Of a stretch of DNA of 64,000 bases, positions 19,018 to 40,221 are shown piece after piece. Origin of the DNA: Prochlorococcus marinus str. MIT 9313 (lineage in GTDB: Bacteria; Cyanobacteriota; Cyanobacteriia; PCC-6307; Cyanobiaceae); contig NC_005071.1 of NCBI RefSeq assembly GCF_000011485.1, positions 310,001 to 374,000 on the forward strand, written 5' to 3'. The translations under genes were made by a program, and so were the position numbers. The notes below the pieces were generated by a model. The model made no database searches, was not told the origin of the DNA, and was given only the letters and a program-made list of their open reading frames with translations. Numbering within the stretch: the first letter of the stretch is position 1; every line of letters starts with the position of its first letter.

Positions 19018-19102
19018 GGAGAGGTGGCTGAGTGGTCGAAAGCGAACGACTCGAAATCGTTTGACGGGCAACCGTCCGTGGGTTCGAATCCCACCCTCTC
19101 CG
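19018..19102 (+). tRNA. tRNA-Ser (CGA)
   Basis: The acceptor stem GGAGAGG (19018-19024) pairs with CCTCTCC (19095-19101), with discriminator G. The anticodon stem AACGA/TCGTT holds the loop CTCGAAA, anticodon CGA. A long variable arm (TGACGGGCAACCGTC) identifies a class II serine tRNA, and the T-arm GTTCGAATC is standard. CCA is not encoded. The 3' end forms the left end of the integrated element. Confidence 0.97.
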
Positions 19103-19104
19103 TT
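19092..19104 (+). repeat. Left attachment repeat (attL core) in tRNA-Ser
   Basis: CACCCTCTCCGTT covers the last 11 bases of the tRNA-Ser gene plus two. An exact copy lies at 40209-40221. The pair flanks the integrase and excisionase genes, as expected for integration into a tRNA 3' end. Confidence 0.85.
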
Positions 19105-19217
19105 TTTAGTTTGTGCTGCCGGGACCTGACAGGTCTCAGAGTGCTTTCATAGCAATGTGTCTGGGACGTGACGCTGTCCTGAGAGGTCCTCGGAAAACCC
19201 CTCCGAAGCGCTTGATT

Positions 19218-19280
19218 TGTTGGTGGATATGTTGGTGGATATTGTGGTTGTGTTGGTGGATAAAATGTATGTTGGTGGAT
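19218..19280 (+). repeat. Four copies of TGTTGGTGGAT, candidate integrase arm sites
   Basis: Identical 11-mers occur at 19218-19228, 19230-19240, 19251-19261 and 19270-19280, just before the integrase start at 19289. A fifth exact copy (40128-40138) lies near the right end. The second copy and the right-hand copy share the longer TGTTGGTGGATATTG. Position and repetition suggest binding sites for the integrase N-terminal domain. Confidence 0.75.
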
Positions 19281-19288
19281 TTCGTTAG

Positions 19289-20557
19289 ATGGGTCTGACA
19301 GAAAGGGAAGTCAGGTCACTATCAGTCAAGTCAAAGAGGTACAGCAGGTCCGTGGGAGACTCCCTATATGTATTAGTAGAACCTGTAAAAGGTAGTGGTG
19401 GCAAGAGTTTTGTAGGGAAAATGCGTTCTAATGGCAAGCAAATTGATGTTCGTATCGGCGTTTTTGGCAAAGGTCCAGGGCAGTGGACTCTCAAAGCAGC
19501 AAGAGATGAATGGTTTCGTTTGCGGAGTTGGTATAGAGAGACAGGCAGAGATCCAAGAGAATTGCAAAAGGATGAGAAAAGGCAATTAGCAAAACAATCC
19601 TCTGATCAAACACTTAATGAGTTGGTTGATTCTTATTTGATTGCATGTAAGACGAAATACAAACAATCAGAGACCACCATTAAGGACAAGAAAAATAAGT
19701 TGTCCAATGAAATTATCCCTGCATTAGGTGGAAGTACTCCTGTTAGTCGTTTGGGATGGGATGAGAAATCAAAAGGTAGGACTGGCAGAGAAGCGGTCTT
19801 TGAGATCACTGACTCCATAGAGAAGAGGGGGTCTCTAAATCAGGCAAGGAAGGTGCTTGGTGTGATGAGGCACCTCTTTGACTACGCCATAGAACGGGGA
19901 TGGATGGAGAGAGGTCAAAACCCTGCAGTGCAAGCAAGGAGTGTTGGTGCAGGGCATGAGGTCCAACACAACCCTTGTTTGTCGTGGGATGAGTTGCCGC
20001 AGTTATTGGATGACCTAAACCGCAATAAGGGGAATGGGTCACAGGTGGTTCTTGCTGCGATCAAGTTGGATTTAATGACTTTCTTGCGTGTTGGGTCATT
20101 GGTTCCAATGCGTTGGGATGAAGTGGATTACGCAGCAAACCTATGGACTGTGCCTGGATCCAGGATGAAGAGTGGCAAGAATCATTGGGTTCCTCTGACT
20201 GATCCAATTAAGGATCTGCTGGCACATCTGAGGAAAATCAATGGTGACCAGGATTATGTGTTCTGGAGTCCAAGGGGTAGAAGCAAACCCCATATCGATG
20301 AGTCAGCACTGAACCAACACCTCAAAGTGCGCCTTGGTTATGGAGGAAGGCAAACCGCTCATGGACTTCGTTCTTTGCCACTAACAGCAGGGCAGGAAGT
20401 CCTCAAGTTCTCTGCTGAGGTCATTCAACGGCAGATGGACCATGCAGTTGGGGACAAGGTTCGTCAGGCATACGACAAGTCCCAACTTCTTGATGAGAGG
20501 TGGAAGTTCATGCGTGCCTGGTGTGATGCTCTCCTGGATCAAGGACTTGAGGTTTGA
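19289..20557 (+). CDS. int: Tyrosine integrase, P4 type
   Basis: This 422-aa recombinase has an N-terminal arm-binding domain of the P4/DUF4102 sort (about 1-95), a core-binding domain (about 105-210) and a C-terminal catalytic domain. The visible catalytic set is Arg267 (FLRVGSL), Lys294 (RMKSGKNH), His358/Arg361 (AHGLRSL), His385 (MDHAVGDK) and Tyr395 (VRQAYDKS), so it looks active. It begins 187 bases after tRNA-Ser and reads away from it, the classic arrangement for integration at a tRNA. The ATG at 19289 directly follows the repeated arm-type motif, so the enzyme may repress its own promoter. Confidence 0.95.
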   Translation: MGLTEREVRSLSVKSKRYSRSVGDSLYVLVEPVKGSGGKSFVGKMRSNGKQIDVRIGVFGKGPGQWTLKAARDEWFRLRSWYRETGRDPRELQKDEKRQLAKQSSDQTLNELVDSYLIACKTKYKQSETTIKDKKNKLSNEIIPALGGSTPVSRLGWDEKSKGRTGREAVFEITDSIEKRGSLNQARKVLGVMRHLFDYAIERGWMERGQNPAVQARSVGAGHEVQHNPCLSWDELPQLLDDLNRNKGNGSQVVLAAIKLDLMTFLRVGSLVPMRWDEVDYAANLWTVPGSRMKSGKNHWVPLTDPIKDLLAHLRKINGDQDYVFWSPRGRSKPHIDESALNQHLKVRLGYGGRQTAHGLRSLPLTAGQEVLKFSAEVIQRQMDHAVGDKVRQAYDKSQLLDERWKFMRAWCDALLDQGLEV

Positions 20558-20566
20558 GAAGGGGCA

Positions 20567-20938
20567 TCAAGCAGTTCCATTGGTCGAGGAACCCTTCTTG
20601 CACCTGCTCTTAATTGGCAACCAGTCTTCTGAGTAGGTACTGGTCCATCTCGCCTTACGCCACTCATCAAACATCTGCGTGCCTCCATAACGCTTGATCA
20701 GGTCATGGAGAACAACACCATTGAGAGTGCATCCATCAACAGGACATGCCAGCACATAGGTGTCCTTAGAGCGTGCATAACCCATCACTGCCTTGTGCTT
20801 CTTGCAGTTAGGGCATTGAACCTGGAAGGTCTCTTTGCCGTTGAAATTATCTCTTCTTTTGATTCCACCTAATCTTGATGCCATTTCAATGAAGAATGGA
20901 TATTCAATTTTGAGATCAGTTTTAAACTCATAACCCAT
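20567..20938 (-). CDS. Zinc-ribbon hypothetical protein
   Basis: This 123-aa protein has four cysteines in a ribbon pattern: Cys42-Pro-Asn-Cys45 and Cys65-Pro-Val-Asp-Gly-Cys70, with GYARSKDTYVLA between. This resembles the zinc-binding heads of primases or transcription-related proteins, though no catalytic domain follows. It converges on the integrase, with 9 bases between the stops. Its place in the element suggests a role in DNA handling, but that is inference. Confidence 0.65.
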   Translation of the reverse strand: MGYEFKTDLKIEYPFFIEMASRLGGIKRRDNFNGKETFQVQCPNCKKHKAVMGYARSKDTYVLACPVDGCTLNGVVLHDLIKRYGGTQMFDEWRKARWTSTYSEDWLPIKSRCKKGSSTNGTA

Positions 20939-21197
20939 AAGATTATCTCTCTACTTGTTATCATAACTTAACACAATATCAACAATTAGTCAACAACTTG
21001 TATAGATAGAGTGGGTATGAAATTTTGGACTTCTTGAGTTAACTAAGTTCACTTAAGTGTTCTCAAAGTCATCTTAAGGATCAAAGGTGATTTTAAAAGT
21101 ATTTATAAATATAAGTACGTTTACTACCTAAGACTACTTTCTAGCGATAAAGCATCAATTGAGAATCAGGACCATCCTTACTTTATTTACAAGAACT

Positions 21198-21368
21198 ATG
21201 CAAGCAATTCAAGAACCAAAGCAACTAATCAAATCAGTTTCCTATAAGAGAACAGAACAGAAGGTATTAAAGATGGAAAAAGAACTACAAGATTATTATG
21301 GATATGACTACAGTGGATTACATAAGACTCTTGTAAGGGATGCATTTGCAAAGATCAGAATGATTTAA
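21198..21368 (+). CDS. Small basic hypothetical protein
   Basis: The protein is 56 aa if started at ATG 21198 (MQAIQEPKQ); an upstream ATG at 21159 adds 13 residues. It is rich in Lys and Tyr (SYKRTEQKVLKMEKELQDYYGYDYSG) and probably helical. A second small gene follows after 12 bases on the same strand with a good ribosome-binding site between, so the two probably form one transcript. No known family. Confidence 0.5.
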   Translation: MQAIQEPKQLIKSVSYKRTEQKVLKMEKELQDYYGYDYSGLHKTLVRDAFAKIRMI

Positions 21369-21380
21369 AGAGGAACAATA

Positions 21381-21925: not shown

Positions 21926-21950
21926 ACGAGTCCTTTGATTTACTTTTTCT

Positions 21951-23927: not shown

Positions 23928-24287
23928 GCGTGTTCCAAAAAGAGGGGTGTTTCACCTGTATTTCTACTTTAGCAACCAGAACGCCTTAATGGAACACATC
24001 TGAGATTGACTTCACTGGATTTTGAGGGATGAACGCTTCTTAACCAGATTGATCGTTAACCGATCGCTTATTGGAACATAAGAAATAGGCACTACTGCTC
24101 ATACCCCTACTCAATCTCCGTGCTTAGACCTGTATTAGGAGTCCGAGGACGTAGAGACCCTGAAAACCTGTCCTGGACTTGAGGGCATCCGATGCGGGTG
24201 CCCTTCTTCATGTCATGCAGTTGCTGCCCTAATGGTGAGACTGTTTGCTCTACCTAGTCTGAAGACATCGGAGTACGCCACCACTTG
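23928..24287. other. Gap between recombinase and TPR genes
   Basis: No gene is apparent. It contains the putative recombinase repeats listed with that gene. A hairpin GGGCATCC-GATGC-GGGTGCCC followed by TTCTT lies at about 24183-24206 and could terminate rightward transcription. It also holds the first copy of the CCTAGTCTGAAG leader motif (about 24252-24263) that recurs before the second large TPR gene. Confidence 0.55.
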
Positions 24288-26471
24288 ATGTCCCGTCGTC
24301 GTACTGGTGCCATTGCGATAGGGGTTGGTGCTCTTACTGCTGTTGTGTTGTCTCTAGTAGGAGCAAAGACACCAGTGGTTATTGGGAGTGCTGCTGCCTT
24401 AGGAGTCGCTGGTGGGGTTGTTGCTGGTCGTAAGGGGATTGGAAAGAGTGCTGATGAATTGATGGAAAGCGGAAAATCAAAGTTAGAAAATAAGGATTTT
24501 CATGGGGCGATTGATGATTTCAATAAGTTATTAGATAGTCACCCTTACAATGCTGATTCATATTATAATCGTGGACTTGCTAAAGCAAAATTAGGCAATA
24601 ATCAAGGAGCAATTGAAGATTACAGCAAAGCAATTGAAATAAATCCTTTACATGCTATTGCGTATACAAAAAGAGGTAATGCTAAGTTTGACTTAAAGGA
24701 TCATCAAGGAGCACTTATTGACTGCAGCAAAGCAATTGAAATAGATGACAATAATGCTGAATTCTTCTTTAATCGAGGATTCCCAAAGTTGAAGTTGGAA
24801 GATCAAGAAGGGACCAAATCGGACTGGTTTAAAGCAGCAGCATTAGGAGATAAGCATGCAAGTATTTGTTTGAGAGATTTATTTTATAGTCACTCTCAAA
24901 GTATGATAGATGCTCAATCTGATGACCTAACAGAAGTTGAAAGGCACTCAAGGCGGTGCCTTCTCCTAGAGGATTTTGATCCTCTGGAGGCAATTGATGG
25001 ATACTTAACACTACTAAGTATCGAACCTTCTAATGCCGAACACTATATCTCTATCGGCAAGTTAAAAAGGAGAATAGGAGACAATGAAGGGGCGTTGATT
25101 GATTTAAGCACGGCGATTGAACTTGACCCGAAGAGTTCTACTGCTTATGGAGAGCGTGGTCTTGTAAAGAGCATAATGGAAGACTATATGGGAGCAATTA
25201 ATGACTATAATCATTGCTTATGTGTTAAAAGAGAGAAAGTGCTTGAGAAGCGTTATCAAACTTTTATCAAGAGATTACTGGGTGATCTTTTAAGGCAAAA
25301 TACAGATATCAATCCAAAGGATTCGCTTAACTATACTTATCGTGCTGCGAGTAAATGTAGTGAAGGTGATTATCAAGGCGCTATAGAAGATTATACTAAA
25401 GCACTAGAATTAGACAGTAAGAACTCTTTGGCATATATGTTCAGAGGTGCTTGCCATGATTTAAGTGGAGATTCAAAAGCAGCGCTTGATGATTATTCAG
25501 AATCCATAGAACTGAATCCCTCTAATGCAGATATCTATTACACCCGTGGAGTTACATTAAGGGACTCCGGTGATGATATAGGTGCACTTTCAGATTTTAC
25601 CCTAACTATTAAATTAGACAGATGGAATGCATTAGCATATAGGAATCGAGGGAATCTCCACTTTAGACATTCAGAATTAAAAAGTGCTTGTTGCGATTGG
25701 AATGAAGCGTCAGACTTAGGAGATGAAATAGCAAAAGGGTTATTAGAAGAGCATTGTGACTCTTGTGAATTGCAAACCACTTCATATCAATTTGCCAAAC
25801 TAGGAGATGAAAATTTTGATGATGATTATGCTTCTGCAATAGATGCTTACAGTAAGGCATTGGAAATTAACCCCAATGTTGAGATTTATCTTATGCGTGC
25901 TGCTGCAAAAGTTGAATTAGAAGATCTTGAAGGAGCAATGTATGATTATGAGAAGGCATTGGAAATTAATCCATACTGTCACGATGCATATTTCTATCGT
26001 GGAATTAGCAAAGAAGATTTAGGAGATTATCCTGGGGCAATTGATGATTTTACCAAGGCAATAGACATCTCTCCTGATATACGTAGTTACATGAATCGTG
26101 CCTCTCTTAAATCAGATCTTGGTGATTACCAAGGGGCAATTTCTGATTATACGAAAGTATTAGAAATTGACCCTTATGAAGATGAAATACGTTTCATCGT
26201 AGGTGCATATAATCGCCGTGGAGAAGCAAAAGCAAGGATTAATGATAGAGAAGGAGCATTAGAGGATTTTACTGAATCTATTGAAATCGACCCAGAGAAC
26301 ATATATGCCTATATAAATCGAATATTAGTTAAAAAAGAACTAGGAGACCTCAATGGAGCATGTGAGGACTGGAAGAAAGCAGCAGAACTTGGCAATCAAT
26401 ATCCATATATGAAGGTGCGGTTGGAAAACAATAAAGAAGTAACCAAGTTTGTGACGGAGCACTGTCAGTGA
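24288..26471 (+). CDS. TPR protein with N-terminal membrane hairpin (727 aa)
   Basis: It starts at the ATG at 24288 (MSRRRTGAIAIGVG). A basic head and a long hydrophobic Gly/Ala-rich segment to about residue 45 look like two close membrane helices. Many 34-residue TPR units follow (for example AYTKRGNAKFDLKDHQGALI). The terminal capping motif of the family, CxDWxxAxxLG..LLEEHC, appears once internally (ACCDWNEASDLG, about residue 470) and once at the end (ACEDWKKAAELG), so the gene looks like two fused TPR modules. The first 190 bases of gene plus leader are about 90% identical to those of the next gene. It probably presents a cytoplasmic protein-binding scaffold at the membrane; partners unknown. 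Confidence 0.88.
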   Translation: MSRRRTGAIAIGVGALTAVVLSLVGAKTPVVIGSAAALGVAGGVVAGRKGIGKSADELMESGKSKLENKDFHGAIDDFNKLLDSHPYNADSYYNRGLAKAKLGNNQGAIEDYSKAIEINPLHAIAYTKRGNAKFDLKDHQGALIDCSKAIEIDDNNAEFFFNRGFPKLKLEDQEGTKSDWFKAAALGDKHASICLRDLFYSHSQSMIDAQSDDLTEVERHSRRCLLLEDFDPLEAIDGYLTLLSIEPSNAEHYISIGKLKRRIGDNEGALIDLSTAIELDPKSSTAYGERGLVKSIMEDYMGAINDYNHCLCVKREKVLEKRYQTFIKRLLGDLLRQNTDINPKDSLNYTYRAASKCSEGDYQGAIEDYTKALELDSKNSLAYMFRGACHDLSGDSKAALDDYSESIELNPSNADIYYTRGVTLRDSGDDIGALSDFTLTIKLDRWNALAYRNRGNLHFRHSELKSACCDWNEASDLGDEIAKGLLEEHCDSCELQTTSYQFAKLGDENFDDDYASAIDAYSKALEINPNVEIYLMRAAAKVELEDLEGAMYDYEKALEINPYCHDAYFYRGISKEDLGDYPGAIDDFTKAIDISPDIRSYMNRASLKSDLGDYQGAISDYTKVLEIDPYEDEIRFIVGAYNRRGEAKARINDREGALEDFTESIEIDPENIYAYINRILVKKELGDLNGACEDWKKAAELGNQYPYMKVRLENNKEVTKFVTEHCQ

Positions 26472-26502
26472 CCTAGGCGTTGCTTCAGAGGGGTCGCTAA
26501 CG

Positions 26503-26542
26503 GGCAAGAAGTCTTTCCCCACCTAGTCTGAAGGCATCGGAG
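26503..26542 (+). repeat. Conserved leader before TPR genes
   Basis: GGCAAGAAGTCT and CCTAGTCTGAAGGCATCGG lie just ahead of the second large TPR gene. Related copies precede the first (about 24252, the latter part only), the third (31440-31463) and the 214-aa hairpin gene (34495-34511, the former part only). Position suggests a shared promoter/leader or a recombination footprint. Confidence 0.65.
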
Positions 26543-26556
26543 TACGCCACCTCTTG

Positions 26557-29500
26557 ATGTCTCGCCGTCGTACTGGTGCCATTGCAATAGGGGTTGGTGC
26601 TGCTACTGCTGTTGTTTTGTCTCTAGTAGGCGCAAAGACACCAGTAGTTATTGGGAGTGCTGCTGCCTTAGGTGTTGCTGGTGGGGTTGTTGCTGGTCGT
26701 AAGGGAGGTGGGAAGAATGCTGATGAATATCTTGAAAGCGGAAAGTCAAAGTTAGAGAAAAAGGATTTTTATGGAGCGATTGAAGACTTAAATAAAGAAA
26801 TAGAGATCAATTCTCAGGATGTCGCTGCTTATAGTAAACGTGCGAATCTAAAAGAGAAATTAGGTGACCATAAAGGGGCAATTGATGATTTTACAAAGGC
26901 AATAGAGATTGATCCTAACCATGCCCACCCATATTACAATCGTGGTTTTTCTAAGTGGCAATTAGGCGATATTCAAGGAGCAATTGCTGATTACAATCAC
27001 GCTTTAGCAATTTATCCACTCTTTAAGGATGTCTACTTCTTCCGTGGCATGGCAAAAGACCAAATCGGAAATTTTGATGGAGCAATTGCTGATTACTCAA
27101 AGGTGATTGAGATTGATCCTGACCAACTGTATAAATATCGAGATGAGTGTAGTGCCTATTTCCACCGTGGTAAGGCAAAACATAGTAGTGGAAATATTTC
27201 TGGAGCAATTGCTGATTACTCAAAGGCAATTGAAATTGATCCTAAAAATGATAGCGCTTATAATAATCGTGGGATCATCGAGGATGATTTAGGGCAGCGT
27301 AAACTTGATGATTTCTATTATCAACTAGCAATTGCAGATTACGACAAGGCGATAGATATCAACCCGAGCAATGCCGATGCATATCTCAACCGGGGGCATA
27401 CAAAATTAAATCAGAGAGATTTTGATGGGGCAATTGCTGATTTCAATCATGCCTTAAATATTGATCCACAGGTTGATAACATATATTTGAAACGCGGCGT
27501 TGCCAAGGACGAATTAGGAAATCATCAAGGAGCAATTGCTGATTACACAAAGGCAATAGAGATTGATCCTCAGGACGCCCTTGCTTACAACAACCGTGGT
27601 GTTGCAAAGAGTAAATCAAATGATTTTCAAGGATCTATTTCTGATTGCACAAAGGCGATAGAGATTGATTCAAAATATGCGTTTGCCTATCGGAACCGAG
27701 GACATTCTAAAAAAGAATTAGGAGACCTAATAGGTGCCTCTGAGGACTGGAAGAAAGCAGCAGAATTAGGAGATCAAGGCGCTGCAGAATTGCTGAAAGA
27801 GGAAAGACTCAAGACTGGTTCATTGATTGATCAGATGTTTCAAGTAACTATTGGTAAGCAAAGTTCTAATGAGTCCGATGGTCTAGACCTTTCAGATACA
27901 GGTGACACTAATGGCAAAATCAAGGAATTAACAAAGGTAATAGAACTGAACCCTAATTATGCCGATGCATACAGTCTTCGTGGTGTCGCTAAGTTTCAAT
28001 TAGATGATTACCAAGGAGCACTTGAAGACTTCGATTATGCGTTAGAAATTAATCCTAATGATGCTGAGACTTATTTTATGCGCGGTAATGTGAAAGGTGA
28101 AATAGGAGATACTGAAGGAGCAATCTCTGATTACAGTAAAGCAATAGAAATTGATCCTAAAGATGCAGATGCATTCACTAATCGTGGTCTTGCAAAGTAC
28201 GATTCAAAGGATTATCAAGGAGCAATTGCAGATTACAACAAGGCAATAGAAATTGATCCGCAACTTGCCGATGCCTACAACAATCGCGGTCTAGTCAAGG
28301 ATGAATTAGGTGATCATCAAGGGGCAATTGCAGATTACAACAAGTCATTAGATATTAATCCTCAACTTGCCGATGCCTACAACAATCGTGGTCTTGCCAA
28401 GTATGATTCAAAGGATTATCAAGGAGCAATTGCTGATTACAACAAGTCATTAGATATTAATCCGCACTTTGCCCTTGCTTACAACAATCGCGGTCTTGCC
28501 AAGGATGAATTAGGTAATCATCAAGGAGCAATTGCAGATTACAACAAGGCAATAGAAATTAAACCTCAGTATGCCAATGCCTACTTCAACCGTGGTAATG
28601 CCAAGAGTGATTTAGGAGATACTCAAGGAGCAATCGCTGTTTACAGCAAGTCAATAGAGATTAATCCGCAGTATGCCGCTGCCTACTACAACCGCGGTAA
28701 TGCCAAGAGAAAATTAGGAGATAATCAAGGAGCAATTGCTGATTGCAGTAAAGCAATAGAGATTAATCCGCACTTTGCCCTTGCTTACAACAATCGTGGT
28801 CTTGCCAAGTATGATTCAAAGGATTATCAAGGAGCAATTGCTGATTACACCAAGGCAATAGAGATTGATCCAAAGGATGCCGATGCCTACTCCAACCGTG
28901 GTTATGCCAAGAGTCATTTAGGAGATACTCAAGGAGCAATTGCTGATTACACCAAGGCAATAGAGATTGATCCAAAGGATGCTCCTACCTACTACAACCG
29001 TGGTTATGCCAAGAGTCATTTAGGAGATACTCAAGGAGCAATTACTGATTACACCAAGGCAATAGAGATTGATCCAAAGGATTCCGATGCCTACTCCAAC
29101 CGTGGTTATGCCAAGAGTCATTTAGGAGATACTCAAGGAGCAATTGCTGATTACACCAAGGCAATAGAGATTGATCCAAAGGATGCCGATGCCTACTCCA
29201 ACCGCGGTCTTGTAAAGGATGAAGAACTAGGAGACCATCAAGGAGCAATTGCTGATTACACAAAAGCAATAGAGATTAATCCGCAGTATTCCAATGCCTA
29301 CTACAACCGTGGTAATGCCAAGAGTGAATTAAAAGATTATCAAGAAGCAATTGCTGATTACACAAAGGCAATAGAGATTGATCCAAAGGATGCTCCTGCC
29401 TACTACAACCGTGGTAATGCCAAGAGTGAATTAAAAGATTATCAAGAAGCAATTGCTGATTACAGCAAAGCAATAGAGATTAATCCGCAACTTGCCCTTG

Positions 29501-29730
29501 CCTACAACAATCGTGGTCTTGCCAAGTATGATTCAAAGGATTATCAAGGAACAATTGCTGATTACAACAAGGCAATAGAGATTGATCCACAGTATGCCAA
29601 TGCCTATAAAAATCGTGGTAATGCCAAAAAAGAACTAGGAGTCCTCAAAGGTGCCTGTGAGGACTGGAAGAAAGCAGCAGAACTAGGAAATGAAGATGCT
29701 GCCTTGTTGGTGGAGGAGCACTGTCAGTGA
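26557..29730 (+). CDS. Large TPR protein with N-terminal membrane hairpin (1057 aa)
   Basis: This is a paralogue of the preceding gene, with the same hydrophobic head (GAIAIGVGAATAVVLSLVGA) followed by nearly thirty TPR units. The module cap occurs internally at about residues 390-405 (ASEDWKKAAELG) and again at the end (ACEDWKKAAELG ... VEEHCQ). Units are close to identical at the DNA level. Four 102-base copies start at 28843, 28945, 29047 and 29149, showing recent tandem growth. The copy number can therefore vary between strains and is hard to assemble. No enzymatic domain is visible. The leader motif GGCAAGAAGTCT...CCTAGTCTGAAG lies just upstream. Confidence 0.88.
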   Translation: MSRRRTGAIAIGVGAATAVVLSLVGAKTPVVIGSAAALGVAGGVVAGRKGGGKNADEYLESGKSKLEKKDFYGAIEDLNKEIEINSQDVAAYSKRANLKEKLGDHKGAIDDFTKAIEIDPNHAHPYYNRGFSKWQLGDIQGAIADYNHALAIYPLFKDVYFFRGMAKDQIGNFDGAIADYSKVIEIDPDQLYKYRDECSAYFHRGKAKHSSGNISGAIADYSKAIEIDPKNDSAYNNRGIIEDDLGQRKLDDFYYQLAIADYDKAIDINPSNADAYLNRGHTKLNQRDFDGAIADFNHALNIDPQVDNIYLKRGVAKDELGNHQGAIADYTKAIEIDPQDALAYNNRGVAKSKSNDFQGSISDCTKAIEIDSKYAFAYRNRGHSKKELGDLIGASEDWKKAAELGDQGAAELLKEERLKTGSLIDQMFQVTIGKQSSNESDGLDLSDTGDTNGKIKELTKVIELNPNYADAYSLRGVAKFQLDDYQGALEDFDYALEINPNDAETYFMRGNVKGEIGDTEGAISDYSKAIEIDPKDADAFTNRGLAKYDSKDYQGAIADYNKAIEIDPQLADAYNNRGLVKDELGDHQGAIADYNKSLDINPQLADAYNNRGLAKYDSKDYQGAIADYNKSLDINPHFALAYNNRGLAKDELGNHQGAIADYNKAIEIKPQYANAYFNRGNAKSDLGDTQGAIAVYSKSIEINPQYAAAYYNRGNAKRKLGDNQGAIADCSKAIEINPHFALAYNNRGLAKYDSKDYQGAIADYTKAIEIDPKDADAYSNRGYAKSHLGDTQGAIADYTKAIEIDPKDAPTYYNRGYAKSHLGDTQGAITDYTKAIEIDPKDSDAYSNRGYAKSHLGDTQGAIADYTKAIEIDPKDADAYSNRGLVKDEELGDHQGAIADYTKAIEINPQYSNAYYNRGNAKSELKDYQEAIADYTKAIEIDPKDAPAYYNRGNAKSELKDYQEAIADYSKAIEINPQLALAYNNRGLAKYDSKDYQGTIADYNKAIEIDPQYANAYKNRGNAKKELGVLKGACEDWKKAAELGNEDAALLVEEHCQ
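28843..29250 (+). repeat. Four near-identical 102-bp tandem units
   Basis: GATTACACCAAGGCAATAGA begins units at 28843, 28945, 29047 and 29149, exactly 102 bases apart with very few differences. Each encodes three 11-12 residue stretches equal to one 34-residue TPR. Direct adjacency without spacers excludes a CRISPR array. Confidence 0.9.
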
Positions 29731-29735
29731 AGTCC

Positions 29736-30336
29736 TCATTTAAGTGACTCGCATGCCTCCCCGTCTTTATCCCGATCCAGATAGGAGTGCCCTTCCCTGA
29801 GCAGTTCCTGTGCTGCATTCCATGATCTGATCTCTTTGCACCGATAACGCTTTCTCCTGCTGTTGGTCTGCTTGTTTTTCCTGTATTCCCAAGGTCGGTG
29901 TATTCCTCCAGGAACAGACCCAGACCCCAATACCTCCCCGTCTGGCATAGGTCTCTAGTTGGGAGTAGGTCTGCCGATCACACCCTTTGATGTACTGCCA
30001 ATAGACAAAGGCATTCCCCGACTTCACTAATGAGTGGTTGATGTTGCTGCCATTGAGAATGACTTCAGCAACGGTTCTTCCATAGCGGTCAGTTGCCTTG
30101 GAGCGGAGAGTCACATCAGAACCAACCGGCAGAAGACTCTTCAGTGCTTGCCGTGCTGCTTTGCCATAGGGCGATTGGGAAGTCTCTGGAGCATCAATGC
30201 AGGCAAGTCGCACTTTGGTTCTTTGATTGCCTTCTATGACGGTGAGAGTGTCGCCATCACCGATCGAAAGTACTTCTGCTGCATTGGAAGGGACTGCCCA
30301 AAGAGCAAGAAGCAGAACTAGAAATCCCTTGCCCAT
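29736..30336 (-). pseudogene. Secreted staphylococcal-nuclease-like protein, frameshifted before its excalibur tail
   Basis: From ATG 30336 (MGKGFLVLLLALWA), a signal peptide leads into an SNase domain with VRLACIDAPETSQSPYGKAA, TDRYGRTVAEV and QTYSQLETYARRGGIGVW. The frame then runs into unrelated sequence. Dropping one G at about 29919-29921 restores SVPGGIHRPWEYRK and a calcium-binding excalibur end, YLDRDKDGEACESLK. The catalytic core (Arg, Glu, Arg) is upstream of the shift, so a truncated active enzyme is possible. It is the last gene of a tightly overlapping minus-strand operon. Confidence 0.8.
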
Positions 30337-30488
30337 ATCCGATCCAAGCAATTGGCAAACTCCTTCTCCGTCAACGGTTTGGCAAGGTCTTGCTTTCTCT
30401 TAGATCCCCTGATCCACCACATCATCAAAACCCCGTAGAAAACAACCAGCAAACCAACTTCGCGATAACTCCAGTGCAAGTGCTCCAT
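30318..30488 (-). CDS. 56-aa membrane protein
   Basis: The start codon overlaps the stop of the LprI-like gene (TGATG), and the end overlaps the nuclease start. One hydrophobic helix (EVGLLVVFYGVLMMWWI) is followed by a basic stretch GSKRKQDLAKP. Both overlaps argue that it is a genuine coupled gene. It may anchor or assist its secreted neighbours; that is inference. Confidence 0.6.
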   Translation of the reverse strand: MEHLHWSYREVGLLVVFYGVLMMWWIRGSKRKQDLAKPLTEKEFANCLDRIWARDF

Positions 30489-30811: not shown

Positions 30812-31341
30812 GGGGTGTTTTTGATCGACTTAAAGGAGTCAAATAACTTCTGATACCACTGGCGTATGTACTCCCTGCCTTCTGCTGATTCTGCAGGACA
30901 CAACTTTGCCCATCTCATAAAGGGGTTGCCATGAACCGTTTGAAACTTTGGTTGACCTTTCCAGTCCCCTTCTCTGTAGAAGACATCTTGTTCCCAACTG
31001 TCGGAACGGTCGGCATTGGAACTGGTAGCAAACTTCTCTCCAGCACAATCTGCGAATAACCAAATTTCAGATTCGGCAGGACCACATCCGTCTTCATCAC
31101 CTCTACATAGTCTTGTCCTATAGACCCCATTCTCGTCTTTGGAATTTATCCAAGTTCTTTGGATGACTTTGATCCTGATCCACCCGTCATCCATGGTTTC
31201 TGGATAGGTCAGTTGCTCTGTCTCAACACTGCAACCTGTCCCACATCCAAAGACAGGAAGTACATGGTCTTGCCTTACCTGTAGGGGCACTTGAGTTCCA
31301 GTCACGAGTAGGAGTGATCCAACCAGTGCCGGGAGGTTCAT
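30808..31341 (-). CDS. Secreted cysteine-rich hypothetical protein
   Basis: This 177-aa protein has a signal peptide (MNLPALVGSLLLVTGTQVPL) and a mature region with about seven cysteines (FGCGTGCS, RLCRGDEDGCGP, ADCAGEK, LCPAESAE), suggesting disulphides in the periplasm. No family recognised. It is the first gene of the minus-strand series that ends in the SNase-like nuclease, with each gene overlapping the next. Co-translation suggests the exported products act together. Confidence 0.65.
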   Translation of the reverse strand: MNLPALVGSLLLVTGTQVPLQVRQDHVLPVFGCGTGCSVETEQLTYPETMDDGWIRIKVIQRTWINSKDENGVYRTRLCRGDEDGCGPAESEIWLFADCAGEKFATSSNADRSDSWEQDVFYREGDWKGQPKFQTVHGNPFMRWAKLCPAESAEGREYIRQWYQKLFDSFKSIKNTP

Positions 31342-31493
31342 GGTCGTGCTCTGACCTTCTGCCTATAGGACCATCTAAGAGCGTTTTTGAGTGGTTGGCG
31401 ATCATTGCTGAGAGGAACGCCTCCAAGACCCCCTAGGAGGGCAAGAAGTCTCTCCCTGCCTAGTGTGAGGTCATAGGAAGATGCTTTCTGCTG

Positions 31494-33143
31494 ATGCATG
31501 AACGAAACACCGCTGAGGAATATATAAAACGTGCTAAGGAAAAGTTCCTATTGAAAAATTATCGAGGTGCGATCTCTGATTGCAGCAAGGCAATAGAAAT
31601 TGATCCAAAGGACTCGAGTGCCTACCACATTCGTGGTCTTGCGAGGATTATTAGTGATGAAAAGGAATTAGCGCGTAATGATTTGTACAAGGCATCCGAG
31701 TTGGGCGACAAACATGCTATGGAGATGCTCAAGAAGTGTTTTTATCCAAATGTACAGAATTTAATTGATTTAGAAACAAAGAAAATTGAGAAGGATGCTT
31801 CTAATTTTGAACATTACATAAGACGTGCTCTCCTTAAAGAAAAGTTTGACCCGAATGGAGCAATAGCGGATTATTCAAAAATATTAGAAATTGATTCTGA
31901 GCGTGTCGATGTTTACTTCTATCTTGCTTTAGTCAAGAATAAAGCAGGATATCCCAAACAAGCAATTGAAGATTGCAGAAGAGCATTAGATATCGAAGCA
32001 GGAAATCTCCTTCTCAAGGAGTATTTTGAACTTCGTAACTTTGTAAACTATCTATTAGATGGGAAATCTGAACCCTATCAAGACGCAGGCGACTTGATAG
32101 GGGTAATATTGGTGCGTGAACCTAAAATTACACCTAGTGATTCATTAGAGTATAATTTGAGAGGTATCAGAAAAGCAGATTTAAAGAACTTCCCAGGCGC
32201 AATTGATGATTTCAGCAAGGCAATAGAACTAGAACCTAGAGACTGTCATTTGTATGTAAATAGAGGGATTTATAGGGATATGTCAGGGGACCCTGAATCC
32301 GCAATTAGTGATTATTGCAAGGCAATAGAAATTAATCCGGATTTTGCAGATGCATACTATGAACGTGGTGTTACTTTAAGGGACTCAGGGCATCAGGAAA
32401 GAGCAATTTGTGATTTTTTGAAGGCAGTTGATTTAAATCCAAAATATAGTAATGCTTATCTCAATATAGGAAGCATAAAGTTTCATAGTTCTGATGTAAA
32501 AGGTGCCTGTGCTTACTGGAAGAAAGCATCGGAATTGGAAAATAAAACTGCTGACCTACTTTTAGATCAGGAATGTGCCTCACAGGGTGTACTTGCCAGT
32601 CTGAGTTATTATTTAAACCTTGGAAGTGATAGATGTGAATCTGGCGATTTTGAAGGTGAAATTAATGCTTACGACAAAGCGCTTGAACTGAGTCCTAATG
32701 ATGCAGTTATCTATAACAACCGCGGTAATGCTAAGCGTAAGTTGGAAGACTATCAGAGTGCTATTGAGGATTACAATAAATCAATAGAGATCAACCCTAG
32801 TTCTGCTGCCCCTTACTTCAATCGTGGCGATATAAAGTATGTGTTAGATGACCATAAAGGCGCGATTGATGATTATAATCTGGCGCTAGAGGTTGATCCT
32901 GATGATCCGTTTCTCTATGCTAAACGTGGCGACCTAAGGGTTGCATTACATGACTATCAAGGAGCAATTGCTGATTACACAAAGGCGATAGAGATTAATC
33001 CCCAACTTGCCATTGCTTACTACAACCGTGGAGAGGCAAAAAAAGAAATAGGAGACCTCAAAGGTGCCTGTGAGGATTGGAAGAAAGCGGCAGAACTAGG
33101 ATACGAAGATGCTGCCAAATTGGTGGAGGAGCACTGTCAGTGA
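31494..33143 (+). CDS. TPR protein without the membrane hairpin (549 aa)
   Basis: The ATG at 31494 begins MHERNTAEEYIKRAKEKF and goes straight into TPR units, unlike the two upstream paralogues. It is colinear with the 727-aa protein: LGDKHAMEMLKKCFYPNVQN matches LGDKHASICLRDLFYSHSQS, and an internal module cap (ACAYWKKASELE) precedes a second set of repeats ending ACEDWKKAAELG ... VEEHCQ. The GGCAAGAAGTCT leader lies about 45 bases upstream. The stop overlaps the GTG of a DUF805 gene (GTGA), so this soluble TPR protein is probably made together with a membrane partner. Confidence 0.88.
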   Translation: MHERNTAEEYIKRAKEKFLLKNYRGAISDCSKAIEIDPKDSSAYHIRGLARIISDEKELARNDLYKASELGDKHAMEMLKKCFYPNVQNLIDLETKKIEKDASNFEHYIRRALLKEKFDPNGAIADYSKILEIDSERVDVYFYLALVKNKAGYPKQAIEDCRRALDIEAGNLLLKEYFELRNFVNYLLDGKSEPYQDAGDLIGVILVREPKITPSDSLEYNLRGIRKADLKNFPGAIDDFSKAIELEPRDCHLYVNRGIYRDMSGDPESAISDYCKAIEINPDFADAYYERGVTLRDSGHQERAICDFLKAVDLNPKYSNAYLNIGSIKFHSSDVKGACAYWKKASELENKTADLLLDQECASQGVLASLSYYLNLGSDRCESGDFEGEINAYDKALELSPNDAVIYNNRGNAKRKLEDYQSAIEDYNKSIEINPSSAAPYFNRGDIKYVLDDHKGAIDDYNLALEVDPDDPFLYAKRGDLRVALHDYQGAIADYTKAIEINPQLAIAYYNRGEAKKEIGDLKGACEDWKKAAELGYEDAAKLVEEHCQ

Positions 33144-33604
33144 AAAATCCTCTAATCAAATTGCCTAAGAAAATACTTAGACATTATTTTCTAATGTGGG
33201 AAAGATGTCTTGATATTGATGGACTCTGTTCGCGGGAGGAATATGTGTGGTCTATTTTAGGGTTGATAATAAATGGACTAATTTATCTCTCAATAGTCAA
33301 TCATGCCACACAGAAGTTGAAATCGCTCAGTCCATTAGCATACATTATTATCAATACAGTTATCTTCTCTATTTTATTCATTCCTCCAGGAACTCTTACT
33401 CTGAGGCGCCTTGGAGATGGAGGTAATGGGACTTGGTGGTTATGGACACTCGTGTTAATACTTCTTCCAAATTCGATAGTTTTTAGTTTTCTAAAAATAG
33501 CAACTGTACTCTATGTCTTTTATATGCTTTGCCAACCATCCAAAAGCAGGACGAGTCTAAGTGCTGAAGATTACAACGATGTAGGGAATACCAAGGGTGA
33601 ATAA
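33140..33604 (+). CDS. DUF805 inner-membrane protein
   Basis: It is 154 aa from the GTG at 33140, which overlaps the TPR stop. DUF805 features are visible: DGLCSREEYVWSILGL near the N-terminus, then PPGTLTLRRLGDGGNGTWWL and a hydrophobic segment ending in YMLCQPSK. Three to four membrane helices are expected. The family (YhaH-like) has no settled function but is often found with regulatory or stress genes. Translational coupling to the TPR gene suggests the two products interact. Confidence 0.85.
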   Translation: MKNPLIKLPKKILRHYFLMWERCLDIDGLCSREEYVWSILGLIINGLIYLSIVNHATQKLKSLSPLAYIIINTVIFSILFIPPGTLTLRRLGDGGNGTWWLWTLVLILLPNSIVFSFLKIATVLYVFYMLCQPSKSRTSLSAEDYNDVGNTKGE

Positions 33605-33607
33605 GAA

Positions 33608-35347: not shown

Positions 35348-38300
35348 TCAAGGTATCTTCCCTGAAGCACGCAGATCTGATATCTCCTGAAAGACTCTCT
35401 CTACGATTTTGGATCCCCTGCGATTGTAAGGAAGTTCAGCAAATACCTCCTCAAAAATCTGTTGATCAGAAAGCAAGGATCCATCAGAGCAGATCCAGCA
35501 GATATATTCAGCAATCTCCTTGCCATAGTCATCAATGGATGGATACCCAGGCAAGTTGGGTTTAGGACCGTTTCGCGTCCTGATGGGGACTGTCTCTTGA
35601 GTTGTCTGAGGTGATTGCTCAGACTGGGTGAGTGGGCGAGATCTAATTGCCTTATTAACAGCATCTATAGCGATTTCGACCTCGCTTTCTTTATTGGTGA
35701 ACCATTCGGTAGACCAAATCCTATGGAATTGCCACCCCAATCTTTCCAGATGATTCTGACGAATACGATCTCTATCTCTGGCAGTATCACTTGAGTGATA
35801 TGACGCGCCATCTGCTTCTATTGCCATAACAAATCTGCCTTTCTCCTCTGGGTGCTGAACCGCAAAATCGAGGCGATATCCTGAGACTCCATATTGAGGG
35901 ACAAGACCAACTCCCCTGGCAACAAGAGCGTCATGAATATCCTGCTCAAATGGATTCATTGGTACGGTCTCGCTAGATAAGTCGCCAAGATCCATCCCGC
36001 CACTCTTGACAAAGCGCAGATACTTAATAAGACCCTTCACGCCAACACTGTTGATGCGATTGTCGTCGTATTGATAGGGGTTGATCGTTGTGATCACTTC
36101 AACCCGCTTTCTGGCACGGGTTACTGCCACATTCAGTCGTCGTAATCCAAAAAAGTTCTTATCAATATTGATAGGACCAAAACTGTTCTGGACTTTTCCT
36201 AATTCCTTTGGTCCATACCCTGTGGCAATAAAGACCACATCGCGTTCATCCCCCTGAATTGCCTCTAGGTGCCTGATGACTAGTTTTTCCTCAGGTTTAC
36301 CCTCTGGGAATAACGGCAGAGAGGGGGTAGCACCAACCTGCTTGTGAAACTCATTTTCGATCTTTCTTGCGTGCTCACTGCCAAAGGCAATGACGGCAAG
36401 ACTCAGATGAGGATTTATTTTTAGGTGATTGATGACAAGTTCTACTGTCTTCTTCACCTCTGCTTTAGGAGAGGATCCTGTGACCTCCTTGAGTTCACCT
36501 TCGATGTGGTGGTAGTCAAAGGGTGCTTCTTGAGAAGTCGATGGTGCAGTGACTAGGCGAGAACCGTACAGATCAGGGTGCTTGTTGGAGAAGGCAATCA
36601 GGCGCTCATCCTCCGACCTGTAGTGCCACTGAAGGGTTCGTACTCCCACAACAGGTGGCAAGACCGACTTGACGGCATCGAGCAGTGATTCGGTCTCATC
36701 TACTGCATCGAATGAATCCTCATCGTCTAAGTCATCGCCTCTGTGGTCATCATCTGAGGATTTTGAGAAAAAGGAAGTGGTTGTCGGCGACAGTTGTTTT
36801 GAGTCGCCAGCAACGATGGTTTGCTTGCCTCGCAGTATCGATGTAATTGCCTCAAAAGGGACAATCTGACTTGCCTCATCAAAGATCACGACATCAAAGA
36901 AGGGTTCTTTATTGGCAGGTAGGAGTTCTGATACGACCAGTGGACTCATTGCCCAGCAAGGTTTTACAGATTTGAGTATTTCTGGGGCACAGGCAAATAA
37001 TTTCCTTGCCGACAACCGGTTTTTTCTTCTTGTGCTCTGCTGACGAAGCAAGTCTTCCTGGTCTGGATGCTGTTGACGCAACTTATGTGCACGTTCAGCA
37101 GTGATGCGTCTGATTCGCTGCCCAGTGGTTGCTATGTGCTCAGAATCGGTTTCGCGGAACGTACCTATGGTCCTATCTAGATAATCTCTTGTAGAAGAAG
37201 CAAGTGAAGGTGCATTGATTCGAATGACTTCCTCAACTTTCTGTGCCCATGCAGAAATGATTTTTTTGTAAACAACTTCTGATGCTTCTCCAGATACAAA
37301 GTCTTTAATTACTTTATCTATCAAACCTATTTCCGAGAGACCTAACTCTTTCAGTTTCAATAGAGATGCTTTGACTCTTGGAGCATTTGGAATTGAGCGT
37401 CGATATCTTTCGATTCCATTTAGTGTTGCCTTTAGTTCGCCAAGGTTCGATTGTTCGCCAAGTAAGTCATTGATGTATCTATTAAGAGTAGAAATTGATT
37501 CCAGGAGACTATCGATACATCCATTCAATTCACTAGGGCATGATGCTGTAGAGGGATTTAGTCCTATCGATTGGAGATACTGTTGATTTGAATATACCTG
37601 ACTTGCATTTCTTAGGTTGTCAATGCTTGGTTTGACTTGATTGATAAGTGCATTCTTTAAACTTTTAAGTGCTTGACGGTAATCTGCGTCTGTCAGGAAC
37701 GAAAGTATTCTCAGTAATAGATTCCTGTTTAGCACTTTCTTTAAATGCCTTATTGCCTCTTCTTGCAGTCTTATTGCCTTTGAGGTGTCCAAAGTCTGGT
37801 TACTTCTGAATTCCTCAATATTATTGATTGCTTCCTTGACTTGTTCGCATGAGTTCAGGATGATTCTGACTTGCTCGTTATGTGTATTGACCCATGCTTC
37901 GACAGAACCCAGTGCTGGTCTTGCATTGTCCAATGCATTGAATACATCTTGTACATCACTAGTTGATTTGATTTCACCTGCCTTTATTCCTTTTGAAAGA
38001 GGAAATGTGTCAGATAGTAGTTCTCCTGCAGATAAATTCTCCAGTTCTTCTAGGGATTGCTTTATGTCGTCTGTATCAGCAGATTTGATATTGATTACCT
38101 CATCATTTGATATTAAATATGGATTGTCTTTGATCTCACTAGATTCCATTCCATACTGAAGGATGTCGATGTAGGAACATCCCCATGGAGATCTCTTCTC
38201 TTGAATCTCTTTGGTTCTATTCACCAATAACTTCCTGGATCTCATAAGGCGCTGTTGATTCTCTGAGCAGTCAACTATTGGGATGTTGGCGATTTCATCA

Positions 38301-39340
38301 AGTGCTTTCACAAATGGTTCTGCTGGTCGTTTTCTAATTGTTTCCGCAGAATGCAGATCAAGGAAGAAATTCCCAAGTCCCACATTGTCCACCCGCTTTT
38401 TAACTGCATCAATTGCTGCTCTCTTTTCTGCGACAAATAACACGCTCTTACCAACTGCCATATAACTTGCTATCAAATTGGCAATCGTTTGACTCTTGCC
38501 TGTCCCTGGAGGACCTTCAATGACAAGGTTCTGTCCTTTTAATGCAGAATTAATTGCCCATTCCTGACTTGAGTCTGCATCGAGTACCAAGAATTCATTT
38601 TCAGGAGGTACACGATCTGGTTCACTGCGATCAACCTTAGCAATATCTTTCTTTAACTCACCTTTTGAATCCTCATCACCTGCCAGCGCAGCAATTAAAG
38701 TATTTGCAGAGAGTGACTCCACTGCAGATAACAAATCTTTCACCATCGGCAGTTTCTGATAGCGAAGATTCTTGATTGCAAATCCAGGGTTGATTGCTAG
38801 TTCGACAGTCTCAGGGCATTGTTCCCGCACAACACGCTCTAGTTCTTTTGCACCCTCTGTTTGAGCATCTTCTATTGCATCCTCATCGATATCAATATCT
38901 AAACGACGTTTGAGATGTAGCAGAAAGACAGGGTTTGCTTCAGGTTCTGCACTGATCAATTTCAGGCGCGTTCTTTGTAGTGATACTCCTGGATTTTCAA
39001 TCTTTAGTGAATAAAGCAAAAACGGTGCATTGGGGTTGGCAGTGCTTCCGCCTTTCCATGTCGCAAAACCAGTGATCAGTCTTAGACATTCGATCCCTGA
39101 CTGTTCTTCTAGTTCAATTGCCTTCTTGATAACGCCTGTTGCTGCCCTTCTGTTCTCTGCGACTTCTATGTCAATAAAGTCGGAGATCAGCAGTGATTCC
39201 CCGTCCAGCAGGCGTTTAACTGCTTCTTCTGATGGGATCAGTGTTCCACCCTTGGTCTGCTGAAAACTAATCAGGTCATTCCGCCCTGACAGATCGATCA
39301 GTTCATCTGCCCACTGTCGATAGCGGTGCTCAAGACTCAT
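35348..39340 (-). CDS. DUF4011-SF1 helicase-Vsr-like nuclease fusion, probable defence protein
   Basis: This 1330-aa protein has an N-terminal DUF4011-like region (about 1-250). The superfamily I helicase has Walker A GPPGTGKS at 276-283, a Walker B FDEASQIVPFEA near 820, GDSKQLSPT, a WHYRSEDERLIAFS motif and a LRRLNVAVTRARKRVEV motif VI. A C-terminal PD-(D/E)xK-type Vsr/DUF559 nuclease follows (YRLDFAV ... AIEADGASYH, about 1155-1190), then a short winged-helix-like tail. This order matches DUF4011-helicase-Vsr proteins reported as single-gene antiphage systems (Hhe). All motifs look intact. It sits near the right end of the element, a usual place for cargo. Confidence 0.9.
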   Translation of the reverse strand: MSLEHRYRQWADELIDLSGRNDLISFQQTKGGTLIPSEEAVKRLLDGESLLISDFIDIEVAENRRAATGVIKKAIELEEQSGIECLRLITGFATWKGGSTANPNAPFLLYSLKIENPGVSLQRTRLKLISAEPEANPVFLLHLKRRLDIDIDEDAIEDAQTEGAKELERVVREQCPETVELAINPGFAIKNLRYQKLPMVKDLLSAVESLSANTLIAALAGDEDSKGELKKDIAKVDRSEPDRVPPENEFLVLDADSSQEWAINSALKGQNLVIEGPPGTGKSQTIANLIASYMAVGKSVLFVAEKRAAIDAVKKRVDNVGLGNFFLDLHSAETIRKRPAEPFVKALDEIANIPIVDCSENQQRLMRSRKLLVNRTKEIQEKRSPWGCSYIDILQYGMESSEIKDNPYLISNDEVINIKSADTDDIKQSLEELENLSAGELLSDTFPLSKGIKAGEIKSTSDVQDVFNALDNARPALGSVEAWVNTHNEQVRIILNSCEQVKEAINNIEEFRSNQTLDTSKAIRLQEEAIRHLKKVLNRNLLLRILSFLTDADYRQALKSLKNALINQVKPSIDNLRNASQVYSNQQYLQSIGLNPSTASCPSELNGCIDSLLESISTLNRYINDLLGEQSNLGELKATLNGIERYRRSIPNAPRVKASLLKLKELGLSEIGLIDKVIKDFVSGEASEVVYKKIISAWAQKVEEVIRINAPSLASSTRDYLDRTIGTFRETDSEHIATTGQRIRRITAERAHKLRQQHPDQEDLLRQQSTRRKNRLSARKLFACAPEILKSVKPCWAMSPLVVSELLPANKEPFFDVVIFDEASQIVPFEAITSILRGKQTIVAGDSKQLSPTTTSFFSKSSDDDHRGDDLDDEDSFDAVDETESLLDAVKSVLPPVVGVRTLQWHYRSEDERLIAFSNKHPDLYGSRLVTAPSTSQEAPFDYHHIEGELKEVTGSSPKAEVKKTVELVINHLKINPHLSLAVIAFGSEHARKIENEFHKQVGATPSLPLFPEGKPEEKLVIRHLEAIQGDERDVVFIATGYGPKELGKVQNSFGPINIDKNFFGLRRLNVAVTRARKRVEVITTINPYQYDDNRINSVGVKGLIKYLRFVKSGGMDLGDLSSETVPMNPFEQDIHDALVARGVGLVPQYGVSGYRLDFAVQHPEEKGRFVMAIEADGASYHSSDTARDRDRIRQNHLERLGWQFHRIWSTEWFTNKESEVEIAIDAVNKAIRSRPLTQSEQSPQTTQETVPIRTRNGPKPNLPGYPSIDDYGKEIAEYICWICSDGSLLSDQQIFEEVFAELPYNRRGSKIVERVFQEISDLRASGKIP

Positions 39341-39511
39341 GTATGCCCAGATCTAAATCCAAGATATTCCTGCTCGGCGGACCGATCCTTTTTGCTTCAA
39401 ACCAATAGTCACCATTGCACTGTCGGACCCTTCTGAGCACTAGAGATCCGAGTAGTCACCGCAAACCACTTGACCCAATCGACCCTCTCGGACTAGTACA
39501 GGTGTATTGAC

Positions 39512-39802
39512 GTGAAGGATTCGATGGCACGGTTCTCAGGCAGGCAACTATCGCCAATCCCATCTTCTGACCCAGAGGAGTGGCAGTGCATGGATGACGG
39601 CACTCTCAAACCCTCGCGATCAGGAGCGGTTTGCATGACCTGTAATCACTTCCGCTATGCCGTTGGGAAGCAATGCCAGACGCTATTGACCTGTCCTATC
39701 CATCAACGCCTGATTCCTCAAGGAGAGCACCTCAACAGCAAATGCCCTCAATGGATCATGAGAAGGGAACTGGAGGTTGGATGGGCGCCTGAGGTTGCTT
39801 AG
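39512..39802 (+). CDS. Small cysteine-rich (zinc-finger-like) protein
   Basis: The protein is 96 aa from a GTG at 39512; an ATG at 39524 gives 92 aa. Its core is CMTCNHFRYAVGKQCQTLLT followed by CPIHQRLIPQGEHLNSKC, a Cys/His arrangement that could bind zinc. Similar small proteins occur in cyanobacteria, but I know no function. It is divergent from the helicase-nuclease gene. Confidence 0.6.
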   Translation: MKDSMARFSGRQLSPIPSSDPEEWQCMDDGTLKPSRSGAVCMTCNHFRYAVGKQCQTLLTCPIHQRLIPQGEHLNSKCPQWIMRRELEVGWAPEVA

Positions 39803-39846
39803 ATCGCCCAAGAACGATTCAGAGGGGCGCAGGGCGCCTTGTTAAC

Positions 39847-40041
39847 TCAAAGCGCTGCCTCCTGAATTTTCTGATTCATCCAGTCCTGCACGTCATGCTT
39901 GGTCCAAACAACCTGTTGAGGTCCAATCTGGATTTGCCTTGGGAATTTCTTTTCGGCGATCATCTTGTAAATCGTCGACTTAGAGAGCGATGTCATCTCT
40001 TTTACTTGATTCAATCGCAGAAATTTTACTTCATAAGTCAT
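39847..40041 (-). CDS. AlpA-family excisionase/regulator
   Basis: This 64-aa protein has a winged HTH: FLRLNQVKEMTSLSKSTIYK, MIAEKKFPRQIQIGPQQVVW, TKHDVQDWMNQ. This is a textbook AlpA pattern. AlpA proteins activate the integrase or act as directionality factors in P4-type elements. It lies about 170 bases inside the right repeat and faces inward, the natural place for an excisionase. Confidence 0.88.
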   Translation of the reverse strand: MTYEVKFLRLNQVKEMTSLSKSTIYKMIAEKKFPRQIQIGPQQVVWTKHDVQDWMNQKIQEAAL

Positions 40042-40127
40042 TAGATAGATATCCTATTCCTCCTTCTTATTGTATCACATATTGCTAAATTTAGCAACTT
40101 TGGTTATAGATAAATGTATGGTGGAAA

Positions 40128-40138
40128 TGTTGGTGGAT
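40128..40138 (+). repeat. Right-end copy of the TGTTGGTGGAT arm motif
   Basis: This is an exact copy of the motif present four times beside the integrase. A degenerate version (TGTATGGTGGAAA, from about 40115) precedes it. It lies 70 bases from the right attachment repeat. Confidence 0.7.
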
Positions 40139-40208
40139 ATTGCTTATCGATCTTGCTAAGTGGTCCCGATTGGTTTGCTGCAGTGTATATTCCATTCAGA
40201 TCGACGGA

Positions 40209-40221
40209 CACCCTCTCCGTT
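40209..40221 (+). repeat. Right attachment repeat (attR core)
   Basis: CACCCTCTCCGTT is identical to 19092-19104 at the tRNA-Ser end. It defines the right limit of an element of about 21.1 kb. No other tRNA-like sequence surrounds it, so the complete tRNA stays on the left. Confidence 0.85.

Follow-up and report, generated by a model that had tools for sequence, protein, structure and literature searches.

Prochlorococcus has few proven mobile elements, and the movement of its genomic islands is an open question. Here, we examined a 64-kb window of the Prochlorococcus marinus MIT 9313 genome (positions 310001-374000 of 2,410,873 bp), in which a block of DNA follows a tRNA-Ser(CGA) gene, and asked whether this block is an integrated element, where it starts and ends and whether it may still move. 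The inserted unit was found to span window positions 19105-40221 (21,117 bp, one core copy counted; Table 1), giving an island with exact ends, with empty and putative tandem alleles in relatives and with a predicted attP of 0.3 kb that is open to testing by polymerase chain reaction (PCR). We are confident that it is a tRNA-targeting, site-specific integrative element or genomic island, of a known kind with new details.

Ends, integrase and candidate excisionase of the element

The block is bounded by two exact copies of the 13-mer CACCCTCTCCGTT, such that a fragment of the tRNA 3' end is repeated in direct orientation with an integrase gene enclosed. A 99% complete genome of the same genus (G003) carried tRNA-Ser followed by a single 13-mer and then directly by sequence matching 40222 onward (tRNA-Ser-CACCCTCTCCGTT-GCTTGATTC; junction ...GGTTCGAATCCCACCCTCTCCGTTGCTTGATTCTTC...), and no match to the integrase was found in that genome. 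When joined, the window flanks differed from G003 by four substitutions across 200 bp around the junction. Outside the 13-mer, attL matched G003 on the left only and attR on the right only, and the limits of the inserted unit follow from these one-sided matches. The initial annotation had proposed a complete integrated element between tRNA-Ser and a 13-bp direct repeat, had foreseen an empty site of this form and had allowed that relatives might all be occupied; the exact repeat and the exact junction of the empty G003 allele bear the proposal out. Of the limits it had given, 19018-40221, the right one held and the left one did not, because the tRNA belongs to the host and the element proper begins at 19105.

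Even when two mismatches were allowed, the window contained no third copy of the 13-mer, and genome-wide (2.41 Mb) the one extra copy was the 3' end of tRNA-Ser(UGA). The G+C content was 42.3% inside the element, compared with 47.6% in the 10 kb to its left and 54.0% in the 10 kb to its right. The core in MIT 9313 reads GACGGA-CACCCTC-TCCGTT, that is, inverted half-sites flanking a 7-bp spacer, which is the usual plan of a tyrosine-recombinase core. Several predicted arm-type sites lie on both sides of this core, as in P4-type systems: four copies of TGTTGGTGGA precede the integrase gene, and a fifth stands with a degenerate copy before attR. The motif TGTTGGTGGAT occurred exactly five times in the window, always within 180 bp of one of the two cores, and a sixth match to the 10-mer, at 29705, fell inside a TPR gene. 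The matched arm motif thus pairs the element ends independently of the 13-bp repeat. Since the empty site and the paired arm sites independently mark the same two ends, the concern that the 13-mer might be a chance match could be set aside.

The enzymes named by the initial annotation, namely a P4-type integrase with all catalytic residues, an AlpA-like excisionase candidate at the opposite end and a serine recombinase between the repeats, were each recovered by family scans. Int combines an N-terminal arm-binding domain of the DUF4102 type with the catalytic series R-K-H-R-H-Y (R267, K294, H358, R361, H385 and Y395), all of which were invariant or nearly so in 23 homologues. Its structure model (mean predicted local distance difference test score, pLDDT, 89.6) had lambda integrase as its best fold match, and the N-terminal part aligned with the arm-binding domain of the HAI7 integrase at 1.4 Å over 87 columns (model, fold search); a sequence search of the PDB with Int, unlike the fold search, returned no matches. 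The AlpA gene lies at the end opposite int, about 170 bp from the attR repeat. The model of its product (pLDDT 91) has the winged-helix fold of solved excisionases, the best match being the GIsul2 excisionase 8c3t (0.8 Å, template modelling score 0.91 by target length, Foldseek E 1.7e-3), followed by RdfS and then a mycobacteriophage Xis.

A second relative, AG-412-I05 (G002), was occupied. One of its contigs holds the same left end at tRNA-Ser as MIT 9313, and another holds the same right end (AlpA, arm site and core, about 95% identical) followed by a 15.1-kb second unit (L052 2019-17111), which contains a truncated integrase and ends at a decayed core, CACACTCTCCGTT, before the chromosomal flank. 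Read as joined, these contigs would form a tandem, island-on-island allele in which the second unit is the older. The genes of the second unit resemble those of nonulosonic-acid and glycan synthesis and probably concern surface glycans. Between MIT 9313 and AG-412-I05, int differed at 17 bases, 16 of them third positions, with zero amino-acid changes, and its DNA identity of 98.7% compares with 92-96% for the majority of flanking stretches. Of random base changes, only about one in four is silent; because all 17 were, int is under strong purifying selection.

Mobility and alternative origins

Integration at the 3' end of tRNA-Ser(CGA) was most likely carried out by the element's own Int. Int monomers are expected to bridge the core and the arm sites of a circular attP (the -93/-81 pair, the core and +113/+125/+146/+165) and to exchange strands with the tRNA, probably inside the spacer CACCCTC, an event that would restore the tRNA and leave the 13-bp repeat. 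In excision, the AlpA winged-helix protein from the far end probably serves as directionality factor, enabling Int to recombine attL with attR; in PICMI elements, excision is driven by AlpA proteins (PMC10803314). Because the attL arm sites occupy the DNA immediately in front of int, with the fourth ending 9 bp short of the start codon, Int bound there probably keeps its own gene repressed until AlpA is produced. Such autorepression would follow the logic of KplE1, where integrase bound at attL overlapping the int promoter represses int (PMC2951348), and of ICEMlSym-R7A, where IntS bound at attP has been proposed to prevent transcription of int and where integration is efficient only with all five arm sites (TGKTGGTATC) present (PMC11963761).

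Overall, the element is probably mobile. The initial annotation had called it still mobile, which the purifying selection on Int makes plausible, although excision was not observed. Several points weigh against a mobile element of the kind described. The analysis was made at the sequence level, and no excised circle was seen. Only one clean empty allele was found in the genus, the contig of G001 being cut at the tRNA and that of G004 ending just past it, and the ends of the AG-412-I05 element lie on separate contigs whose connection we infer. No promoter was recognised in the stretch between attL and int, where we infer autorepression, and in MIT 9313 the right-hand arm pair has a degenerate member, at -93 (7/10). 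Together with a cargo gene that looks frameshifted, the degenerate site would suit a former mobile element that kept its ends and lost the ability to excise; we consider such a fixed element quite unlikely, given the selection on Int, the perfect core repeat, an AlpA gene that is intact and 95% conserved and the existence of an empty allele, though that allele possibly predates the insertion. It is scarcely credible that the serine recombinase, or homologous recombination at a variable locus, built the block and that the 13-mer is incidental. A serine recombinase is present and tRNA loci are often variable, but nothing resembling a pair of res or hix sites was evident near its gene, and the exact empty-site junction and matched arm motifs at both ends are specific signs of tyrosine-integrase action.

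The element might instead be a genuine tycheposon and so belong to the Prochlorococcus transposon family whose spread takes place in vesicles and phage particles. Like tycheposons, it is a tRNA-borne cargo element of the same hosts, and its host, the tRNA it targets, its size and the style of its cargo agree with this reading (partly general knowledge; PMC10872708). Small serine recombinases also occur near tyrosine integrases at tRNAs in another picocyanobacterial element, in a study that treated tycheposon integrases as a separate set for comparison (PMC10187409). Against this assignment stands the P4-type arm-binding domain of Int, recognised both by Pfam (Arm-DNA-bind_3) and by fold. Tycheposons in the sense of Hackl et al. 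2023 are reportedly defined by a deep-branching tyrosine recombinase, and by that description the P4-type integrase would set the present element apart. Searches of IMG/VR viral contigs for relatives of Int, the Hhe-like cargo protein and the attP core found none, and no tRNA-Ser-like site examined from viral contigs had the arm geometry, absences that are weak evidence. A tycheposon seems to us a doubtful assignment, and the likeness to tycheposons that the initial annotation drew serves as an analogy only.

As a tRNA-targeting integrative element, the island resembles the ICEMlSym-R7A IntS/RdfS, GIsul2 and KplE1 IntS/TorI islands, in which the integrase stands beside attL at a tRNA 3' end. 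With P4-type tRNA islands it shares several arm sites of similar motif (TGKTGGTATC in ICEMlSym-R7A), a winged-helix excisionase and a tRNA-derived direct repeat; unlike them, it targets tRNA-Ser(CGA), has 4+2 arm sites at fixed spacing, carries AlpA at the far end and has no recognised conjugation genes. The picocyanobacterial tRNA-Phe/tRNA-Cys islands have the same hosts, a tRNA target, a small serine recombinase and variable cargo, but they use different tRNAs and their integrases are described as unlike typical tyrosine integrases, whereas Int is recognised by Pfam (PMC10187409). Vibrio PICMI satellites (int-alpA-primase) likewise combine an integrase with AlpA, which in PICMI triggers excision; unlike these, the present element is much larger, with no recognised primase and no evidence of phage packaging.

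Attachment-site geometry in the picocyanobacterial family

Elements of about 1.5 to 94 kb dock at the same tRNA-Ser(CGA) gene in many genera. Int loci at this tRNA in other genera had the same four arm offsets with different motifs: TGTTGTTGGA in G100, G261, G117 and G130; TGTGGGTGGA in G013, G165 and G301; TGTTGTGGTA in G359; TGTTAGGTA in G169; and TGTTGGGGGA in G253. The motif of G412, ACACATGTA, was nearly in register with the fixed offsets. When 1,386,635 four-site geometries were ranked over 18 attL regions, a start at +113/114 with spacings 12-21-19 came first, scoring 6.9/9 matches against a mean of 2.4 (standard deviation 0.31; 18 loci). Exceptions were G027, G376, G145, G133 and also G293, in which the sites were shifted and one was lost. 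At the right ends, each element's own motif appeared as a pair 12 bp apart, located at -93/-81 in G033, G013, G253, G169 and G117, at -92/-80 in G100, G261, G293 and G133, at -83/-71 in G302 (8-9 of 10) and at -82/-70 in G412.

The arm motif therefore varies between elements, agrees within one element and at both its ends, and follows the integrase tree. These data make it fairly likely, in our judgement, that tRNA-Ser(CGA) elements share a hard-wired attP, consisting of four sites plus a pair near -93/-81, within which the motif switches in lockstep (TGTTGGTGGA, TGTTGTTGGA, TGTGGGTGGA, TGTTGTGGTA, TGTTAGGTA, TGTTGGGGGA and ACACATGTA). This switching presumably tracks the integrase N-domain. 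No published account of a fixed attP geometry with lockstep motif switching was found in the literature searched, of which coverage was partial, and the family-wide geometry is the part of these findings most likely to be new. Fixed geometry and concerted motifs allow element ends to be paired from sequence alone and, if the reading is true, the motif set would provide natural data for the arm-recognition code of P4-type integrases that is directly testable.

Core copies were also followed across the family. The 15-mer CGGACACCCTCTCCG was carried by 39 of the 400 genomes of the family, whereas the reversed pattern used as a control was carried by 1, and in 14 of the 15 genomes where it shared a contig with tRNA-Ser(CGA) it lay downstream in the same orientation at a distance of 1.5 to 94 kb; in the exception, G088, it was far from tRNA-Ser. 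In G200 a single tRNA was followed by three such cores, and in G133 the first core was followed by three more copies. The inverted half-site CGGA...TCCG was considered as a universal or defining feature and rejected, as several elements have other left half-sites.

Other arrangements were seen at the same tRNA. In G007 and G019 (L056, L057), a different class uses the same tRNA-Ser core, with the integrase at the far end and different flanking repeats, and G007 also has TPR genes and a serine recombinase resembling those of the window. With the G027 class of integrase (L055 near 1085-1140), yet another motif, TGACGGTAT, keeps the 12-bp spacing, its two copies lying at about +112 and +124. In G004, unrelated sequence with repeated GGTGCAAC (L177 258-516) runs from tRNA-Ser to the contig end and is perhaps the start of another element.

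Cargo and neighbouring genes

Table 1. Features of the integrated element and its attachment site in window coordinates.
Feature	Position	Strand	Basis
tRNA-Ser(CGA), host gene; 3' end is the attachment site	19017..19103	+	ARAGORN; same tRNA in empty and occupied relatives
attL core CACCCTCTCCGTT, at T-stem/acceptor-stem junction of the tRNA	19092..19104	+	Exact repeat; single copy at G003 empty site
Arm-type site 1, TGTTGGTGGA, +113 from core end	19218..19227	+	Exact repeat
Arm-type site 2, TGTTGGTGGA, +125	19230..19239	+	Exact repeat
Arm-type site 3, TGTTGGTGGA, +146	19251..19260	+	Exact repeat
Arm-type site 4, TGTTGGTGGA, +165, ends 9 bp before int ATG	19270..19279	+	Exact repeat
int, P4-type tyrosine integrase, 422 aa	19289..20557	+	Pfam Phage_integrase and Arm-DNA-bind_3; catalytic residues; fold
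123-aa protein, four cysteines arranged like a zinc ribbon	20567..20938	-	Read from sequence
Small serine recombinase, invertase/resolvase kind, 211 aa	23292..23927	-	PF00239 E 1.1e-30; PHROG DNA invertase
TPR-repeat protein, 728 aa, cargo	24285..26471	+	Family scan
TPR-repeat protein, 1058 aa, cargo; almost identical at its N-terminus to 24285..26471	26554..29730	+	Family scan
SNase-like nuclease, secreted type, cargo	29767..30351	-	PF00565 E 4.6e-21
TPR-repeat protein, 549 aa, cargo	31494..33143	+	Family scan
DUF805 membrane protein, cargo; probably starts further downstream	33077..33604	+	Family scan
1330-aa superfamily 1 (SF1) helicase and MTES_1575 nuclease, DUF4011-like N-terminus; Hhe/ProA/PDC-S37-like defence candidate	35348..39340	-	Family scan
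96-aa Cys-rich protein, kept beside right end in AG-412-I05	39512..39802	+	Comparison
AlpA-type excisionase candidate, 64 aa	39847..40041	-	PF05930 E 1.9e-18; fold match
Degenerate arm-type site, 7/10, -93 from attR core start	40116..40125	+	Motif comparison
Arm-type site TGTTGGTGGA, -81 from attR core start	40128..40137	+	Exact repeat
Left core half-site GACGGA, inverted match to TCCGTT across spacer CACCCTC	40203..40208	+	Sequence comparison
attR core CACCCTCTCCGTT	40209..40221	+	Exact repeat; G003 empty-site comparison

The largest cargo gene encodes the helicase-nuclease, which probably defends against phages. Like Hhe, ProA and PDC-S37, it combines DUF4011-like, SF1 helicase and MTES_1575 nuclease domains, and it is shorter than these proteins (1330 residues, compared with about 1800-1900 in the models). 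It fell short of both curated NCBIfam cut-offs, scoring 742 bits where ProA requires 1500 and 574 bits where Hhe requires 2000, and the protein is a relative of Hhe/ProA, not an equivalog. The 123-aa protein encoded next to int matched no family above cut-off, and the rest of the cargo beyond the genes listed consists of small unknowns. Among the open reading frames scanned (Pfam, PHROGs, NCBIfam), no conjugation, capsid, terminase or primase genes were recognised, and the primase/helicase replication and capsid-control genes of P4-like phage satellites were likewise not among them. Because no transfer machinery was recognised, spread between cells would have to depend on a helper (phage, vesicle or DNA uptake).

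TPR genes with strong internal DNA repeats (window 24285-33143) recur in islands at this and other sites (G002, G007, G024), which suggests that repeat-rich TPR genes are a common cargo class of picocyanobacterial islands. The SNase-like gene (29736-29948 and 29767-30351, minus strand) is seemingly frameshifted from a C-terminal Excalibur calcium-binding domain that lies in another frame.

Beside the tRNA, the DNA-uptake gene comEC (window about 17000-19000) is broken in MIT 9313. Compared with G003, it lacks about 184 bp, with a 7-bp microhomology at 18236-18242, and also has a 1-bp frameshift; the longest open frame is 353 aa in MIT 9313 and at least 585 aa in AG-412-I05. Farther upstream in the window, at 10958-11443, lies a second copy of a VTT-domain gene, 41% identical and with an in-frame TAA.

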